Source: a virus. Taken from it: a stretch of 20,070 nucleotides of DNA. Location of the stretch: IMG/VR virus record IMGVR_UViG_3300031658_000200, positions 1 to 20,070 of that record; one strand, 5' to 3'. A model generated the notes under the pieces. That model made no database searches. It saw only the letters and a list, made by a program, of their open reading frames with translations, and had not been told where the DNA came from. The translations under genes and the position numbers were made by a program. Positions within the stretch are counted from its first letter, which is position 1. Each line of letters opens with the position of its first letter. Positions 1,355 to 20,070 of this stretch are shown here, in pieces.

Positions 1355-3109
1355 ATGATAGATAAAGAAAGAGATAATCTTTTGACTGACTTTGGAAAGA
1401 CAACTTTAAAAGATAGGTACTTATTACCGGAGGAAGATAGTCCACAAGAAGCATTTATGAGAGCAGCAAAAGCCTATTCAGATAATGATGAAATGGCACA
1501 AAGAATTTACGATTATTCAAGCAAATTATGGTTCATGTACTCTACACCAATATTAAGTAATGGTGGTACAAAAAGAGGTATGCCTATATCTTGCTTTTTA
1601 AATTATGTAGGCGATTCAAGAGAAGGATTAACTGGACACTATACTGAAAATGCTTGGTTAACAAGTATTGGTGGTGGTATTGGTGGTTACTGGGGTGATG
1701 TAAGATCTGATGGTACTGTAACATCTGGAGGATCTCAATCTTCTGGAACTATTCCATTTTTACATGTAGTAGACAGTGAAATCATGGCCTTCAGTCAAGG
1801 TAAAACTAGAAGAGGTAGTTATGCAGCCTATATGGATGTATCTCACCCTGAAATACTAGAATTTTTAGATATAAGAAAGCCATCTGGTGGAGATATACAT
1901 AGAAAATGTTTAAATCTACATCATGGTATTAATATGTCAAATGAGTTTATGCAATTAATAGAAAAATGTATAGCTGAACCTACTTATGATGATACTTGGA
2001 ACTTAATTGATCCACATACTAAGGAAACAATTAGAACTGTATCAGCAAGAGATTTGTGGCTTAAGATATTAGAAAATAGAGTAGCTACTGGTGAGCCTTA
2101 CATGTGTTTTATTGATCATATTAATGATGCATTACCTGAAACACAAAAAGCCTTAGGATTAAAAGTACATCATTCAAATTTATGTACAGAAATTACTTTA
2201 CCTACAGCCGAAGATAGAACAGCAGTCTGTTGTTTGTCTTCAGTTAATTTAGAAACTTACGATGAATGGAAAAATGATAAATTATTTATTTCAGACATTG
2301 TTAGGTTCTTAGATAATGTATTAACTAACTTTATTGAAAATGCTCCAGAGCATGTATTTAGAGCAAAGTTTTCTGCTACACAAGAAAGATCTATTGGTTT
2401 AGGTGCTATGGGGTTTCATGCTTATTTACAAAAGTGTGGTATACCATTTGAATCTGCTTTGGCTAAAGCTAAAAATTTAAGTATATTTAAATATATTAAA
2501 TCTGAAGCTATAGCTGAGTCTAAAAGATTAGCAGTTAAACGTGGTGAAGCTCCTGATATGGAAGGTACTGGAATGCGTAATGCTCATTTATTAGCAATTG
2601 CACCCAATGCTTCAAGTTCAATTATTTGTGGTACTACATCACCTTCAATTGAGCCTTATAGAGCTAATGCCTATGTACAAAAGACTATGAGTGGTTCATT
2701 CTTAGTTAAAAACAAACATTTAGAAAAATTATTAGAAACAAAAGGAATAAACAATGATAAAACGTGGACTTCAATCCTTGCTAACAGGGGTTCGGTATTG
2801 CATATCAAAGATCTGTCAGATTACGAAAAAGATATATTTAAAACTTCGATCGAAATAAATCAACAATGGATAATTGAGCATGCAGCCGATAGACAAGAGT
2901 TTATTTGCCAAGGCCAATCATTAAATGTTTTTGTACCAGCTGATGTTAATATTAAAGAATTACACGATATTCACATGTTAGCCTGGAAGAAAAAATTAAA
3001 GACATTATACTATTGTAGAAGTGAAGCTATTAAAAGAGCTGAACTTGTATCGTTAAAAGTTGAAAGAACAATAATACCTGAAGCTGATTGTTTAGCTTGT
3101 GAAGGTTAA
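1355..3109 (+). CDS. nrdA: Class I ribonucleoside-diphosphate reductase, large (alpha) subunit
   Basis: NrdA reduces ribonucleoside diphosphates to deoxyribonucleoside diphosphates in the cytoplasm, supplying phage DNA synthesis. At 584 residues it is much shorter than E. coli NrdA and lacks the N-terminal ATP-cone. It begins directly in the region leading to the catalytic barrel, so dATP activity inhibition is probably absent. Key residues are visible: substrate-reducing Cys80 (PISC), the NLHHG segment at 187-191, active-site N275-C277-E279 (NLCTE), Cys292 as the partner redox Cys (VCCLSSVNL), the radical-transfer pair Y552-Y553, and the C-terminal redox pair C579/C582 (CLAC). The start has an AAAGGAATAAA ribosome binding site. 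nrdB follows 17 bases downstream, fixing the enzyme as class I. No thioredoxin or glutaredoxin gene is seen nearby, so host reductants are presumably used. Confidence 0.96.
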   Translation: MIDKERDNLLTDFGKTTLKDRYLLPEEDSPQEAFMRAAKAYSDNDEMAQRIYDYSSKLWFMYSTPILSNGGTKRGMPISCFLNYVGDSREGLTGHYTENAWLTSIGGGIGGYWGDVRSDGTVTSGGSQSSGTIPFLHVVDSEIMAFSQGKTRRGSYAAYMDVSHPEILEFLDIRKPSGGDIHRKCLNLHHGINMSNEFMQLIEKCIAEPTYDDTWNLIDPHTKETIRTVSARDLWLKILENRVATGEPYMCFIDHINDALPETQKALGLKVHHSNLCTEITLPTAEDRTAVCCLSSVNLETYDEWKNDKLFISDIVRFLDNVLTNFIENAPEHVFRAKFSATQERSIGLGAMGFHAYLQKCGIPFESALAKAKNLSIFKYIKSEAIAESKRLAVKRGEAPDMEGTGMRNAHLLAIAPNASSSIICGTTSPSIEPYRANAYVQKTMSGSFLVKNKHLEKLLETKGINNDKTWTSILANRGSVLHIKDLSDYEKDIFKTSIEINQQWIIEHAADRQEFICQGQSLNVFVPADVNIKELHDIHMLAWKKKLKTLYYCRSEAIKRAELVSLKVERTIIPEADCLACEG

Positions 3110-3126
3110 TAAAGGAATAAAAGAAT

Positions 3127-4080
3127 ATGAGTCTATTTAAGGCACGAACACATTATAAACCATTTGAATATGAATGGGCGTTTGAAGCTTATGATACCAT
3201 GCAAAAAATGCACTGGTTGCCAAGTGAAGTACCATTGCATGAAGATGTAAGGGATTGGAATGAAAGATTAACCGAAGAAGAAAAGAATCTTATTAGTAGT
3301 ATACTTAAATTCTTTACTCAAGGTGATGTTGACATTGCACAAGCTTACTTGGATAGATATATTCCTAAATTTAAATCTCCTGAAGTTAGAATGATGTTAA
3401 GTTCATTTGCTAACTCTGAAGCCAATCATGCTCATAGTTATTCATTATTAAATGATACTATTGGTGAAACGGCATTGACTGATTATAAGGCATTTCAAGA
3501 ATATAAAGAAATGGCTGATAAACATGCTTATTTATTTAAATCTAAAGGTACTGGTACAGAAGGTCTTATAAGAGATATTGCTTGCTTTAGTGCTTTTGGT
3601 GAAGGCTTACAATTATTTGCATCATTTGTTATGCTACTAAACTTTCAAAGGTTTGGTAGAATGAAAGGTATGTGTCAAATTGTAACTTGGTCTATAAGAG
3701 ATGAAACACACCATGTTGAGTCAATGATTAAATTATTTCATACATTAATAAAAGAAAACCCTGAAGTATGGACAGAAAAGTTTAAAGCTGAAATATATCA
3801 AACTGCTAGAGATATGGTAGACCTAGAAGATAAGTTTATAGATCTTGCATTTGCTAGTGGTGGTATAAGAGGTTTAAAAGCTGAAGAAGTTAAACAGTAT
3901 ATAAGATATATTGCTGATAGAAGATTATTACAATTATCATTAAAACCGAATTATAAAGTTAAAGAAAATCCTTTAAGCTGGCTTGATTGGGTTATTAATG
4001 GTGTTGAGCATGCTAACTTCTTTGAAAGTAGAGCAACTGAATATAATAAGGGTACTATAACAGGAAGTTTATGGGGATAA
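3127..4080 (+). CDS. nrdB: Class I ribonucleoside-diphosphate reductase, small (beta) subunit
   Basis: NrdB holds the metal-radical cofactor that starts catalysis in NrdA. At 317 residues it is of near-normal length. The ferritin-like metal ligands are all recognisable by alignment to E. coli NrdB: D67 (TQGD), E98 and H101 (SEANH), E159 (FGEG), and E193 and H196 (RDETHH). The expected radical tyrosine is Y105, seven residues after E98, so this is a tyrosyl-radical type enzyme rather than the Phe-containing class Ic. The C-terminus keeps a tyrosine (Y306, SRATEYNKG) suited to the radical-transfer chain. It has its own AAAGGAATAAAAG ribosome binding site and clearly forms an operon with nrdA. 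All catalytic residues being intact argues that the pair is functional. Confidence 0.96.
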   Translation: MSLFKARTHYKPFEYEWAFEAYDTMQKMHWLPSEVPLHEDVRDWNERLTEEEKNLISSILKFFTQGDVDIAQAYLDRYIPKFKSPEVRMMLSSFANSEANHAHSYSLLNDTIGETALTDYKAFQEYKEMADKHAYLFKSKGTGTEGLIRDIACFSAFGEGLQLFASFVMLLNFQRFGRMKGMCQIVTWSIRDETHHVESMIKLFHTLIKENPEVWTEKFKAEIYQTARDMVDLEDKFIDLAFASGGIRGLKAEEVKQYIRYIADRRLLQLSLKPNYKVKENPLSWLDWVINGVEHANFFESRATEYNKGTITGSLWG

Positions 4081-4604: not shown

Positions 4605-5627
4605 ATGAGTATAAATGATGATGTATATTCAAGAATGCTGAAACACCGTGCATTATTGACTCTTTACGAAAAGAGATTGGATACTGAAATTACTAAAATT
4701 TTAGCTTCACACAAAATAAGGTTACAACGAATTGTTGCAATGTCTGGTACTGTAAATATAAATGCTTTAACTAGAGCTTTGAACAGAGAAATTCGTTTAA
4801 CTTATAAGAAAATATATAAAGATGGTTTAGATGAATTAAATAAATTAGCTGGCGTGAGCGCTAGATTTTATAAAAATTTATTTGATAAATCACTATCTAA
4901 CATATATAAAGCAAGAGGTGTTAAAGATACTTTAAAAGTTAATGACTTGATTATTAAATCCAATGGAACATTTAGTCAACAATTAACTTCTATAAGTATG
5001 TTACAACAAAGAAAAATAAAAGGTATAGTCAAACTTGGTATGACTCAAAATAAAGCTATGATCAATATAGCCCAAGATTTAGGTAGAAGTGGTTTAATTA
5101 CTTCTGCTGTACAATTAAAAACGTTAACTAGAACTGCTATAACTGAAACATCTAATTTTGTATCTAATGCAACTTATAAATTAAATGATGATGTTGTAAA
5201 TGGTTACCAATATGTAGCTACTTTAGATTTAAGAACTAGTTTAATTTGTGGTAGATTAGATGGTAAGGTTTATTCATTAGATAATAAATTTGCACCTCAA
5301 CCGCCTCAACATTTTAATTGTAGATCAACAACTATACCTGTTATAAAAAGTACTGATCAATTATTAAATACTAAAAATAATAGATTACAAAAACGAAAAA
5401 TTGCTGGATTATCTGATAGCCGCCGTGCCTCTATCAATGGTCAAGTACCAGGAAAAACAACTTATCCTGAATGGTTATCAAGTCAATCTAACGATGTTAA
5501 ATTGGCAATATTAGGAAATAAAAAAAGAGTTAGTTTATTTAACTCTGGGGATATTAAATTTTCTCAATTTTCTAATAAAACTGGTAAACTGATTTCGTTA
5601 AAACAACTAGAAAAATTATCGAATTAA
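4605..5627 (+). CDS. Minor head protein, SPP1 gp7 / Mu F family head morphogenesis
   Basis: Proteins of this family bind the portal, are packaged inside the prohead in a few copies and influence DNA ejection. The 340-residue product has an N-terminal helical region (about 1-165) and the conserved gp7/F core at about 170-247: TRTAITETSNF, then DLRTSLICGRLDGKVY (D208, R210, C215, G220) and PPQHFNCRSTTIPV with H236, C239 and R240. These match the family signature D-x-R-T...C...H-x-x-C-R. A further ~90-residue basic C-terminal tail follows. Normally this gene sits directly after the portal gene; here about 3.3 kb of accessory genes lies between them. The start has AAAGGAAATAA. Confidence 0.92.
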   Translation: MSINDDVYSRMLKHRALLTLYEKRLDTEITKILASHKIRLQRIVAMSGTVNINALTRALNREIRLTYKKIYKDGLDELNKLAGVSARFYKNLFDKSLSNIYKARGVKDTLKVNDLIIKSNGTFSQQLTSISMLQQRKIKGIVKLGMTQNKAMINIAQDLGRSGLITSAVQLKTLTRTAITETSNFVSNATYKLNDDVVNGYQYVATLDLRTSLICGRLDGKVYSLDNKFAPQPPQHFNCRSTTIPVIKSTDQLLNTKNNRLQKRKIAGLSDSRRASINGQVPGKTTYPEWLSSQSNDVKLAILGNKKRVSLFNSGDIKFSQFSNKTGKLISLKQLEKLSN

Positions 5628-15747: not shown

Positions 15748-16140
15748 ATGATAGTATTAATAATGGGACTTCCAGGGTCTGGTAAAACAACCTTGGCTAA
15801 TAAATTATCATTATTAATAAATGCAAAAAGGCTTAATGCTGATGAAGTTAGAGAAGAAGCTAATGATTGGGATTTCTCTAACGAAGGAAGAATAAGACAA
15901 GCAAAGAGAATGTTTGATTTTGCTAAAAGAATAAAAGGTAATGTTATAGCAGACTTTGTTTGTCCAACGCCAGAAGCCCGAAGCTTATTCCCTGCAGATT
16001 ATATAGTTTGGATGGATACTATAAAAGAGGGAAGGTTTGCAGATACTAATAAGATGTTTATAAAACCACAAAAATATAATTATAAAGTTACAACTAAAGA
16101 TGCTGAATATTGGGCATCAATAATATTAAAGGATATGTAA
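15748..16140 (+). CDS. P-loop kinase, adenylylsulfate kinase (CysC)-like
   Basis: The 130-residue product begins almost at its Walker A motif, GLPGSGKTT (7-15). It then shows LNADEVR (29-35), which corresponds to the LDGDNVR segment of APS kinases, RIRQAKRMF (48-56), IADFVCPTPEAR (67-78), corresponding to the I-x-S-F-I-S-P-x region, and IVWMDTIKE (86-94) for the FVDTPL segment. It is shorter than typical CysC (about 180-200), and its C-terminal lid is compact. The motif order suggests a kinase of the APS kinase fold. The real substrate in phages of this kind is not established: it might be APS, nucleotides, RNA ends or small molecules. The ATG follows the previous stop with no gap; the ribosome binding site is weak. 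Confidence 0.8.
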   Translation: MIVLIMGLPGSGKTTLANKLSLLINAKRLNADEVREEANDWDFSNEGRIRQAKRMFDFAKRIKGNVIADFVCPTPEARSLFPADYIVWMDTIKEGRFADTNKMFIKPQKYNYKVTTKDAEYWASIILKDM

Positions 16141-16141
16141 T

Positions 16142-16591
16142 ATGAATATAAGAATGGCTAATAAAAATGATACCCAAGATGGTATAAAAGAAATAATACA
16201 AGCAGTTAAAGAATTTCCTGATATGTCTATAAAAGGTTTAATTATAACTGATGAGTATTACAAAAATTTAATTGATTTATGTTTCGAAAAAGGAATGATT
16301 ATTGTTGCAGAAGAAGATAATAAAATTATAGGGTGCATAATAAGTTTATCTAATGCCAATATCTGGACTGCTATGCAAGAACTTGTAACTGTTGTTACTT
16401 GGGTGCATAAAGATAAAAGAAACGGTTCAGCATTTTATAGAATGCATAAATTATACAAAGAAGAATATACAAAATTAAAACAACAAAACAAAATTGACAG
16501 AGTTCTCATGGCTTGCTTACCTGGTAAAACAAATATTAAATTTGAAAAATTAGGTTACAGGCTTATTGAAAAAACTTATGAATGGAGATAA
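16142..16591 (+). CDS. GNAT-family acetyltransferase
   Basis: This 149-residue protein has the GNAT outline: N-terminal strand and helix (IRMANKNDTQDGIKEIIQAV), a strand pair KGMIIVAEEDNKIIGCIISL (50-69), motif A with ELVTVVTWVHKDKRNGSAFYRMHK (80-103), where RNGSA is the acetyl-CoA pyrophosphate loop, and the C-terminal FEKLGYRLIEKTYEW (134-148), the usual motif B ending. It would transfer an acetyl or related acyl group to an unknown amine, perhaps a protein, antibiotic or polyamine. It starts one base after the kinase stop, so the two are co-translated. Its place within the tail operon is unlike that of a structural gene. Confidence 0.85.
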   Translation: MNIRMANKNDTQDGIKEIIQAVKEFPDMSIKGLIITDEYYKNLIDLCFEKGMIIVAEEDNKIIGCIISLSNANIWTAMQELVTVVTWVHKDKRNGSAFYRMHKLYKEEYTKLKQQNKIDRVLMACLPGKTNIKFEKLGYRLIEKTYEWR

Positions 16592-16594
16592 ATT

Positions 16595-19500
16595 ATGGCA
16601 GTAGCCGCACCTATTATTGCAGCAGCAATAGCACCAGGTATTCAAGGAATGATTATAAGGTTTGCATTATCTTTAGCAGTTTCTTATATTACCCAAAAGC
16701 TATTCGGCCCTGAGGCTCCTCCTGGAGCAGCATCGGCTAATGGAGGTTCAGCACCAGATCCTGGGGTTAAGCAAAGAATACCTTCAGATCCTTCAAATAA
16801 ATTACCTGTTGTGTATGGAGAAGATAGAGTACACGGTTCAATTATATATGCTGATATTTCATCTGATAATAAAAAAATGGGTTTTATAATTACTTTATGT
16901 GAAGGACCTATTAAAGCTATAAATGATATTTATTGGGATGACTATAAATTAGTATTTGATACAGAAGATATTTATGGTGGTACTGAAGAGGTAATAGGAA
17001 CTTACCCAGGTAACAATGTTATAGATGGTATACATCCAGATGGATCAAATGATTCTTGGTTAAATGGTAATTTAAAAATTGTTAGATATCCTTATGGTGG
17101 AAGATGCGTAGAGATGGAAGCTTTTAGTACTAAGTGGGCTGCAGATGCAGATACTAGAACTATGCCTGATGTTGCTTATGTTTACTGTGAATTAAATTAT
17201 GATAGAGAAGATGGAGTTACAGGTTTAACAAGTAAGTTAGCTTTTGAAATTGAAGGTAGAATAGTTAGAACACTTAATAGTGATCTTTCTTTAACTGGTA
17301 GATCACCTAAAGATGGTATAACTGATATAGGTTTATTTGATCCTACTCAATTTTCTACAAGTGTATTCTGGCGTGATTATGAGGGAACATCAATTACTGG
17401 TTATGAAGATTATGATGCTTATAATTATAATAACAGTTTTTTATTACCTCAAGCATTAATAGGTACAGGTGGTACATATGAAATTATAGATATTGGTGAT
17501 AATATGTCATACGATATAGATGATTATAAAAATGGAACTATTAGTAATCAAGCATCTTATGATGATGGTGAAGTAGAATTTGATTTTGTACAACCAGGTG
17601 AACAATATAAAGATAATACAACTGGTAATTATATTACATTTCAACCGCCAGTTCCAGATGATGGAAGACGTATTCTTAATGGTTTAAATATTAAAAATAT
17701 GGGAAGAAATTATAGTGAATCTACTGCTGAGAATTCGGCTTATGGAGATGATTATCGTAGAGTTTGGGTAAAATATACTTATCAATATAGTGGATATGAT
17801 AATTATTATTTCTTACCTTTAGTAACACAAGGATTAATAAATCGTTTTTCAATTAATAATACCAATCCTAACGCTGTAAGTGAACATGCTTTTGCTTTAG
17901 ATTTTCATCAATCTATATTACCATATGCTTCATTTTATACAAATAAAGGTATTGAAGACTTTGGTCAAAGAAGACTTAGAAGTTCTACTCATGGTACAGA
18001 TTCAAATGGAGTTGAACCAACATATACATATGAAAGTGGACAACAATATTTAACTGCTACATTACCAATAAGTATCAAAGCATATGCTTGTGGTGACTAT
18101 TCACAAAGTCCACCTGAATGTTTAATAGATTATTTAACACATTATACTTATGGTTGTGGTCAATCTATATATGATAATGATCTTGATTTACAAACATTTT
18201 ATGATCATAAAGTATTCTGTCAAACTTTAGTAACACATAATGATCCTGAAGGTGCATCAGTTAGTAGTAAACAATATCAATCAAATGGTTATGCTAATAC
18301 AGGTGATGATAAAGATTTAAATATTTCAGATTTAGTTAATAATTCACAATCTATGTTTAGTTACACTTTAGGAAAGTTTCAAATGATATCAGATAAAGTT
18401 GATACAGTTAAAAAGATATTTGATCATACTAATATGTATGGTGGTATTACTATACTTAATGATGGTTTTAATTCTACTATAAATGAAATGACTTTAAAGT
18501 TTAAATCTAAAGCTGAGAATTATCAAGATGATCAAGTATTTTTAAATTATGATAATACATATTTTAATGAGCCTGAATTAGCTAAAGATATATCTATAAA
18601 GTTTTTAAATACTAATGTTGAAGCCCAAAGAGTGGGTAGTGTATTAATGAATAAATCTAGAAGTAATAAAATTATTTCTTTTAAAACTGATACAAGAGCA
18701 GCAGAATTACAATTTAATGATGTTATAGAAGTTAATGGAACGTATTATGACTTAAGCCAAAATGGTATTTTAACACATGATTATGTTAATGCACAAAGTT
18801 CTTTACCTTCTACTGCTTCTATTGGTGAATATAAAATGTTTGATAGTGCTCAACATATGGATGTTAGATACTCAGATAATACACCTGCACATTATTTTAT
18901 ACCATATACAATAGTTAAGTTTGATGACCTATTAGTTTATTTTAAAGAATGTATTAATAATCAATTCTTTGATCATTCAGGAACTTTAAGTCAGTATCAA
19001 ATAGATCAAAATAATAAACTAGGTGAAATATTTTCATTAATTACTTTTGTTGATGGATATACTGGTAATGTAAATGGTGGTCAATTTCAGTTTCATATTA
19101 ATTCTATAATATTTGCTGGTGCTGCTGATACTAATATAAGTATTCAAGCAGTAAACAATATTAATAATACAACTTTTATAGGTGTAACAAGTCAATTTCA
19201 AGATTATGATAATGGTACTAGTTTTAGAATTAATAGTATTTCTGAAGTAGAACTTGATGGTGGTTTGCAAGGTTATTATATAACTGCACAAGTATATAAT
19301 GCAGCAGATTATAATGTAGGTTCATTAACTCAAAGGGCTAATGCACCGACTTTAAATGCACAAACTTATGGTACAATTGGTGTTGTAACAAATTTAACTT
19401 TAAATACTAGTAATCCTTTAGCTTCTATACCTAATATAGAAGTAGGTTTTACTACACCTTCTTCAAGTAATATGGAAGGTGTTGAAGTTTATTATTCAGA

Positions 19501-20070
19501 TGGAATAGCAGGTTCTAAAATAATTAATAATGTTATTGCTGCACCTGGAAGTAGTTTTGATGCTAACACTATTCAATCGGTTAGATTAGATAATATACCA
19601 GTTACAACAGATTTATATATTTGGATAAAAGGTTTTAATACTTTTGCAAGAGGTGATTTTTCAACAGGTTTATCTGTTGGTAATTGGAATCCTGCTAATG
19701 CTTCAACTAATGTTGGAAACAATGCAGTAAGCCAAGATTCAATTCAAGATAATTCTGTTGGTACAGATCAAATAGAAGATAATTCTGTAGGTCAAGATCA
19801 ATTATCAGATGTTATAGATTTTTCTGGTAAAGATGTAACCTTACCTGCTGATGCTGTTAAAGCACACACAGGTGTTTGGAGTAATACAATTAAAACTAAT
19901 AATTTTACTGTAACTAATCAAGCTTATTGGCAAGGTTATTTTATAGATACAACAAATAATACAGTAACTGTAACATTACCTGCAACTCCTGATGATGGAG
20001 ATATAGTTAAAATAATAGATGTTGGTGCTAATGCTTCAAATAATAATATTATTATAAACGGTAATACAAA
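16595..20070 (+). CDS. gpJ-like tail tip / central hub and host-specificity protein (3' end outside window)
   Basis: The ORF is open from ATG 16595 (GGAGATAAATT ribosome binding site) to the window edge: 1158 complete codons. The N-terminus is hydrophobic (MAVAAPIIAAAIAPGIQGMI, to about residue 37), then IPSDPSNKLPVVYGEDRVHG (about 61-80) and FIITLCEGPIKAINDIYWDD, both typical of gpJ-like hubs. The J-type segment PPECLIDYLTHYTYGCG appears at about residue 505. Residues about 235-490 lack clear matches and look like an insertion. The C-terminal part is Asn/Thr/Gly-rich strand repeats. A decapeptide-like repeat, QDSIQDNSVG TDQIEDNSVG QDQL, lies at 1047-1070, followed by NTVTVTLPATPDDGDIVKII, similar to tail-fibre shaft domains. 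It would bind the receptor and open the tail tip. The last part is cut off. Confidence 0.88.
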   Translation, partial: MAVAAPIIAAAIAPGIQGMIIRFALSLAVSYITQKLFGPEAPPGAASANGGSAPDPGVKQRIPSDPSNKLPVVYGEDRVHGSIIYADISSDNKKMGFIITLCEGPIKAINDIYWDDYKLVFDTEDIYGGTEEVIGTYPGNNVIDGIHPDGSNDSWLNGNLKIVRYPYGGRCVEMEAFSTKWAADADTRTMPDVAYVYCELNYDREDGVTGLTSKLAFEIEGRIVRTLNSDLSLTGRSPKDGITDIGLFDPTQFSTSVFWRDYEGTSITGYEDYDAYNYNNSFLLPQALIGTGGTYEIIDIGDNMSYDIDDYKNGTISNQASYDDGEVEFDFVQPGEQYKDNTTGNYITFQPPVPDDGRRILNGLNIKNMGRNYSESTAENSAYGDDYRRVWVKYTYQYSGYDNYYFLPLVTQGLINRFSINNTNPNAVSEHAFALDFHQSILPYASFYTNKGIEDFGQRRLRSSTHGTDSNGVEPTYTYESGQQYLTATLPISIKAYACGDYSQSPPECLIDYLTHYTYGCGQSIYDNDLDLQTFYDHKVFCQTLVTHNDPEGASVSSKQYQSNGYANTGDDKDLNISDLVNNSQSMFSYTLGKFQMISDKVDTVKKIFDHTNMYGGITILNDGFNSTINEMTLKFKSKAENYQDDQVFLNYDNTYFNEPELAKDISIKFLNTNVEAQRVGSVLMNKSRSNKIISFKTDTRAAELQFNDVIEVNGTYYDLSQNGILTHDYVNAQSSLPSTASIGEYKMFDSAQHMDVRYSDNTPAHYFIPYTIVKFDDLLVYFKECINNQFFDHSGTLSQYQIDQNNKLGEIFSLITFVDGYTGNVNGGQFQFHINSIIFAGAADTNISIQAVNNINNTTFIGVTSQFQDYDNGTSFRINSISEVELDGGLQGYYITAQVYNAADYNVGSLTQRANAPTLNAQTYGTIGVVTNLTLNTSNPLASIPNIEVGFTTPSSSNMEGVEVYYSDGIAGSKIINNVIAAPGSSFDANTIQSVRLDNIPVTTDLYIWIKGFNTFARGDFSTGLSVGNWNPANASTNVGNNAVSQDSIQDNSVGTDQIEDNSVGQDQLSDVIDFSGKDVTLPADAVKAHTGVWSNTIKTNNFTVTNQAYWQGYFIDTTNNTVTVTLPATPDDGDIVKIIDVGANASNNNIIINGNT
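19733..19804 (+). repeat. Decapeptide-coding repeat in the tail-tip gene
   Basis: Two 30-base units encode QDSIQDNSVG and TDQIEDNSVG, followed by a partial third (QDQL). At DNA level both units contain GATAATTCTGT. Such repeats are common in fibre shafts, where they lengthen a trimeric rod, and in-frame gain or loss of units can change its length. Confidence 0.6.

Follow-up and report, generated by a model that had tools for sequence, protein, structure and literature searches.

The GNAT-type gene between the tail hub and gpJ-like genes of the window (the whole stretch of virus DNA that was analysed, IMG/VR record IMGVR_UViG_3300031658_000200; 20,070 bases) is a constant, little-noticed member of the tail-tip module in marine siphophages of the Kolga type, and the small P-loop kinase gene beside it represents a known phage kinase family in a new location. 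The interpretation we favor treats the two as probably independent: a constant GNAT that would acyl-modify the tail tip, and a passenger kinase for a small metabolite that would later be nucleotidylated. This tells a constant tail-tip enzyme apart from a passenger, and comparing the genes that occupy the slot is the part of the result worth following.

A constant GNAT-type gene in the tail-tip module

The tail module of the window has the gene order of Pelagibacter phage Kolga EXVC016S (tape measure, distal tail, hub, GNAT, J), its hub is 72% identical to Kolga gp13, and the window phage is a siphophage related to Kolga, which was reported to be the first SAR11 siphovirus (PMC8163748). As the original prediction had it, the kinase and GNAT genes lie one base apart between a hub and a gpJ-like gene (Table 1); the kinase start abuts the hub stop (TAA-ATG), and the J protein begins with MAVAAPIIAAAIAP...PVVYGEDRVHG. 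Within the structural operon, the window also carries genes for the large and small subunits of ribonucleotide reductase (1355-4080), flanked by a portal-like gene (3-1241) and a Mu F-like head gene (4605-5627).

Table 1. Features of the tail-tip region of the window
Feature	Position	Strand	Evidence or remark
gpL-like tail hub gene, 203 aa	15136..15747	+	phrog_2048 tail protein, E=1e-17; upstream border of the slot
Compact P-loop kinase, 130 aa	15748..16140	+	optional insert; matches N-terminal domain of phrog_10255
3′ end of kinase ORF with AAAGGAT, RBS-like sequence for GNAT	16116..16141	+	equivalent of the 19-bp empty site ATAATAAAGGATATATAAT of kinase-free relatives (empty-site comparison, sequence)
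Tail-slot GNAT-type protein, 149 aa	16142..16591	+	constant in tail-tip module
gpJ-like central tail protein	16595..20068	+	phrog_31 central tail fiber J, E=2e-20; runs off the window

The GNAT assignment, likewise proposed at the outset, was upheld by a match to the phrog_1249 acetyltransferases (E=9e-11 for the window copy; E=3e-10 and 1.5e-13 for relatives) and by profile-profile comparison (hhalign) with the acetyltransferase of Pectobacterium phage PP1 (94.9% probability). Pfam matches stayed sub-threshold (window copy, E=0.03), searching PDB profiles from the GNAT alignment turned up nothing meaningful, and the AF2 model was poor (pLDDT 52); the fold assignment rests on sequence profiles.

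Scanning IMG/VR with the GNAT and, independently, with the hub yielded 72 records (71 contigs plus Kolga), all 72 of which encode a complete GNAT between hub and J. Among the relatives found through the hub, every contig extending beyond this gene has GNAT sequence in the slot, with four hub contigs without a GNAT match counted as contig ends and one GNAT (L149) frame-broken. This hub-based search, which does not select for the GNAT, thus agrees that the GNAT is constant and the kinase rare. The GNAT is retained in phages whose hubs are as little as 46% identical, and its dN/dS between relatives (0.04–0.17) indicates purifying selection. The same holds for the kinase, with dN/dS of 0.11–0.30 among members of the tail-slot clade and of about 0.38 between the near-identical L009 and L013; as both are under purifying selection between relatives, both are real genes.

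The kinase as an optional insert

A kinase gene accompanies the complete GNAT in 5 of the 72 records, plus the window, and is missing from the other 67; the complete genome of Kolga encodes the GNAT once and no kinase. In kinase-free relatives, the gap between hub and GNAT measures about 12–31 bases, close relatives having a 19-bp empty site, ATAATAAAGGATATATAAT. With the kinase, the gap is 394–410 bases and ends in ATAATATTAAAGGATATGTAAT, nearly identical to the empty site. Comparison of filled and empty sites shows that the kinase is cleanly inserted at one junction and adds about 375–391 bp, and since the end of the filled gap resembles the empty site, the last kinase codons also serve as the ribosome-binding region for the GNAT gene.

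The hub genes of a contig with the kinase (L009) and one without it (L010) are 99% identical (dS 0.015), and the hub tree places the kinase-free L010 and L011 among kinase carriers. Between the window and L009, dS amounts to 0.6 for the kinase, 0.21 for the hub and 0.38 for the GNAT. As the tail-slot kinases form one clade in the kinase tree (SH-aLRT 99), these data together fit one entry of the kinase into the lineage, after which it was lost and exchanged at an unchanging position. The kinase would then be a passenger that a few phages of the lineage acquired between hub and GNAT and that was in some cases lost again or replaced by another allele, and its expression with the late tail operon would be due only to its place of insertion. 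The insert is almost all ORF and contains neither a promoter-like site nor a terminator on the + strand (sigma-70 consensus only); a moron with its own promoter was rejected, there being no promoter-like + strand site. A defence gene was likewise dismissed, with PADLOC returning weak P-loop matches only.

The original prediction had suggested that kinase and GNAT may act as a two-step modification system, a notion with which their adjacency on one strand and the purifying selection on both genes would agree. Yet the GNAT lacks the kinase in 67 of the 72 records, this GNAT is absent from all ~78 non-tail kinase loci examined (from the best 80 of 377 matching stretches), and the usual partner of the kinase is a nucleotidyltransferase (NTase). 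In the co-occurrence check that had been proposed beforehand, the two genes are thus found mostly apart, and we rejected the two-step system, now scarcely credible, on these grounds. That the pair has no expected structural role, also part of that prediction, became doubtful for the GNAT, constant as it is in the tail-tip module at the position of lambda gpK.

A kinase family with a nucleotidyltransferase partner

The kinase itself was correctly recognized as a P-loop kinase with APS-kinase-like motifs. It exceeds the Pfam cut-offs for APS_kinase (31 bits; cut-off 21.1) and AAA_33 (31.2 bits; cut-off 27), and matches the phrog_10255 ‘kinase’ profile (E=6e-30; residues 1–100 on profile positions 2–106). 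Alignment to 2yvu and conservation revealed the P-loop and the N-terminal substrate motifs (D-x-x-R, F-S-x-x-x-R, F-x-x-P). Structure prediction, a check proposed with the original prediction, gave a model of pLDDT 95.5 (AF2) whose top PDB matches are APS kinases (TMq up to 0.85), with gapped Foldseek alignments of 145–175 columns for 130 residues. The top viral fold match is BFVD B2ZYE1, named APS kinase, of Ralstonia phage phiRSL1 (TMq 0.91, 38% identity); this protein is likely a phrog_10255 member.

As also foreseen, the protein is too short for a full APS kinase (130 aa vs. about 170–200): APS-kinase profile matches end near residue 80, and the lid, or C-terminal third, is absent. Because it has the APS-kinase fold without the lid part, we read it as probably a small-metabolite kinase. 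An ordinary APS kinase (cysC) auxiliary gene producing PAPS would account for the Pfam APS_kinase score and for the best PDB and viral fold matches, but is very unlikely: all APS-kinase NCBIfam scores fall far under their cut-offs (24.9 bits vs. 138.7 bits for the TIGR00455 equivalog), an NMNAT-like NTase is the usual partner, and no ATP sulfurylase was present among the neighbour families scanned. A true APS kinase was therefore rejected on the missing lid, the low equivalog scores and the partner genes. In other words, the window kinase shares with CysC the P-loop, the D-x-V-R, F-S-x-x-x-R and F-V-x-P motifs and the core fold, but is missing both the lid and the C-terminal portion, and belongs to a family with a different partner gene.

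That partner emerged from the kinase relatives in IMG/VR (377 stretches, of which the best 80 were retained). Among the informative non-tail loci, an NTase with an HxGH motif is fused C-terminally to the kinase in 32 of 75 and adjacent in 33 of 75, i.e. fused or adjacent in 65 of 75, proportions that are rough since the best 80 of 377 represent the most similar fifth of matches and include near-identical contigs. The NTase is best matched by NMN adenylyltransferase models, and phrog_10255 itself spans kinase and NTase. Kinase relatives occur in five annotated phages; phrog_10255 members with the kinase and the NMNAT-like NTase include Stenotrophomonas phages DLP_6 and Bhz60 and Xanthomonas phage AhaSv. 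Their kinase domain is about 47–66% identical to the window kinase along its length, with equal motifs, whereas the window copy consists of the kinase alone and lies in a tail operon; the window itself contains no NTase. Two further kinases (L037, 10001-10447; L040, 3123-3569) retain only the last NTase residues (ISATDIRAKMREDGKL), as if a fused ancestor had lost its middle by deletion. Marine neighbours of the kinase comprise RecA-like and UvsY-like proteins, a HAD phosphatase, a family 8 glycosyltransferase, an FkbM methyltransferase, radical SAM/SPASM proteins and a carbamoyltransferase.

The kinase belongs to a family whose usual partner is an NMNAT-like NTase, and its most likely role would be to phosphorylate a small metabolite, ribosyl or sugar, as a step before nucleotidylation. 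Against this pathway, the HxGH NTase, C-terminal or adjacent, is absent from 6/6 tail-slot loci and the window, so that another part of the genome, or the host, would have to supply the partner; a search of the window and of longer lineage relatives for the kinase/NTase family elsewhere gave none, with one weak 23-residue P-loop match only.

A more specific version, which we consider unlikely, sees the family as NadR-like nicotinamide riboside kinases whose NTase partner makes NAD, i.e. as a phage NAD salvage route, possibly against NAD-depleting defence. The kinase weakly matches the NadR model, but APS-kinase models outscore it somewhat; the best models of the NTase are NMN adenylyltransferases, but at ~120 aa it is shorter than these. 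In Sanovirus phage Bhz60, the kinase-NTase fusion (L002, 7553-8729) lies directly 3′ of a NADAR gene, as NAD salvage would suggest, while the marine glycosyltransferase, FkbM and radical-SAM neighbours suit a sugar or cofactor pathway equally. As the family scores over the Pfam APS_kinase cut-off, yet has a fold that is incomplete for APS kinase and usually an NTase partner, it may be counted among ‘cysC’ sulfur genes in marine virome surveys.

The tail-tip slot in relation to known systems

Where lambda has gene K, Kolga-like phages carry the GNAT gene, between a gpL-like hub and a gpI/gpJ-like fusion. Across relatives, the J N-terminus displays a conserved hydrophobic stretch followed by LPVVYGE, and it weakly matches lambda gpI residues 128–213 (8iyk_I, E=0.13); in the lambda tail tip, the plug part of gpI comprises residues 135–223, and gpK was not found in the virion (PMC10721106). 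A conference summary reports that gpK cleaves a ubiquitin-like domain off gpI, upon which the tip assembles in order (PMC12908700). In Vibrio phage 1244, the slot gene encodes a DUF6950/NlpC-P60-like protein, and HlyC-type acyltransferase genes (PF02794) fill the same slot in pelagiphages HTVC112P, HTVC026P and HTVC111P. HlyC proteins have a GNAT fold. In these three phages, the toxin-activating lysine acyltransferase gene (L183, 4444-4830; L186, 3986-4399; L188, 3498-3905, respectively) is located directly 5′ of the J-like tail gene; in HTVC103P, a relative sits in the early region. A GNAT of the structural module of T7-like cobaviruses, pc40, was likened to T7 gp13, for which a role in virion morphogenesis is suggested (PMC6775973). 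The available text of the Kolga paper contains no virion proteome and does not mention the acetyltransferase (PMC8163748).

Because of the gpK position, the enzymes in the slot of other phages and the GNATs of structural modules, we take the GNAT to be most likely an enzyme with no structural part in the virion that would acylate a protein of the tail tip (the J/plug N-terminus or the hub), at or before tip assembly; substrate and reaction we infer, whereas position, constancy and homology were observed. The predicted catalysis has to be weighed against the acetyl-CoA pyrophosphate loop, as the canonical R/Q-x-x-G-x-G/A is not present in the window copy and its relatives, which have R-x-S/G-S-x-F instead. 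The weakness of the resemblance between J and gpI also counts against the reading we favor.

These replaced glycines are one reason to consider the main rival, a catalytically dead GNAT-like protein that would act as a scaffold or chaperone in tail-tip assembly. The constancy of the gene in the module and the likening of pc40 to T7 gp13 would suit such a protein, but enzyme families (HlyC, NlpC/P60-like) occupy the slot in other phages, and the loop R-x-S/G-S-x-F-Y-R-M is conserved between phages with about 30% identity, a hint that the site is retained. On balance, we hold a dead GNAT to be possible though rather improbable.

Of similarly low probability, though wider in reach than the acyl-modifying GNAT we favor, is the idea that the gpL–gpI/J slot is a general siphophage place for tail-tip modifying enzymes of unrelated chemistries, namely JAMM/NlpC-P60 cleavage in lambda and HlyC-type lysine acylation and GNAT acetylation in pelagiphages. 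In this joint proposal, the Kolga-like GNAT would acylate the J/gpI-like plug (e.g. its conserved MAAAAP N-terminus) and thereby license tip assembly or membrane insertion. Apart from that proposal, the comparison of slot genes points to the gene K position as a site into which phages infecting abundant ocean bacteria have brought different acyl-transfer enzymes, and so opens tail-tip modification to testing.

Compared with known systems, the GNAT resembles lambda gpK and the NlpC-P60-like (DUF6950) slot protein in its place between gpL and gpI/J, lambda's being a non-virion assembly enzyme, but its fold and chemistry are unrelated (no Pfam match to a JAMM or NlpC/P60 domain in the GNAT), and no ubiquitin-like gpI domain was seen in the window phage. 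With the HlyC-type lysine acyltransferases of HTVC026P, HTVC111P and HTVC112P, it shares the slot before a J-like gene and the nature of an acyltransferase, but these belong to another Pfam family. To the phrog_1249 acetyltransferases of T7-like phages (PP1, 15E36.1) it is linked by its profile match, and the PP1 copy, too, lies just 5′ of virion genes; the window GNAT, however, is very divergent (about 22% identity) and precedes J in a siphophage.
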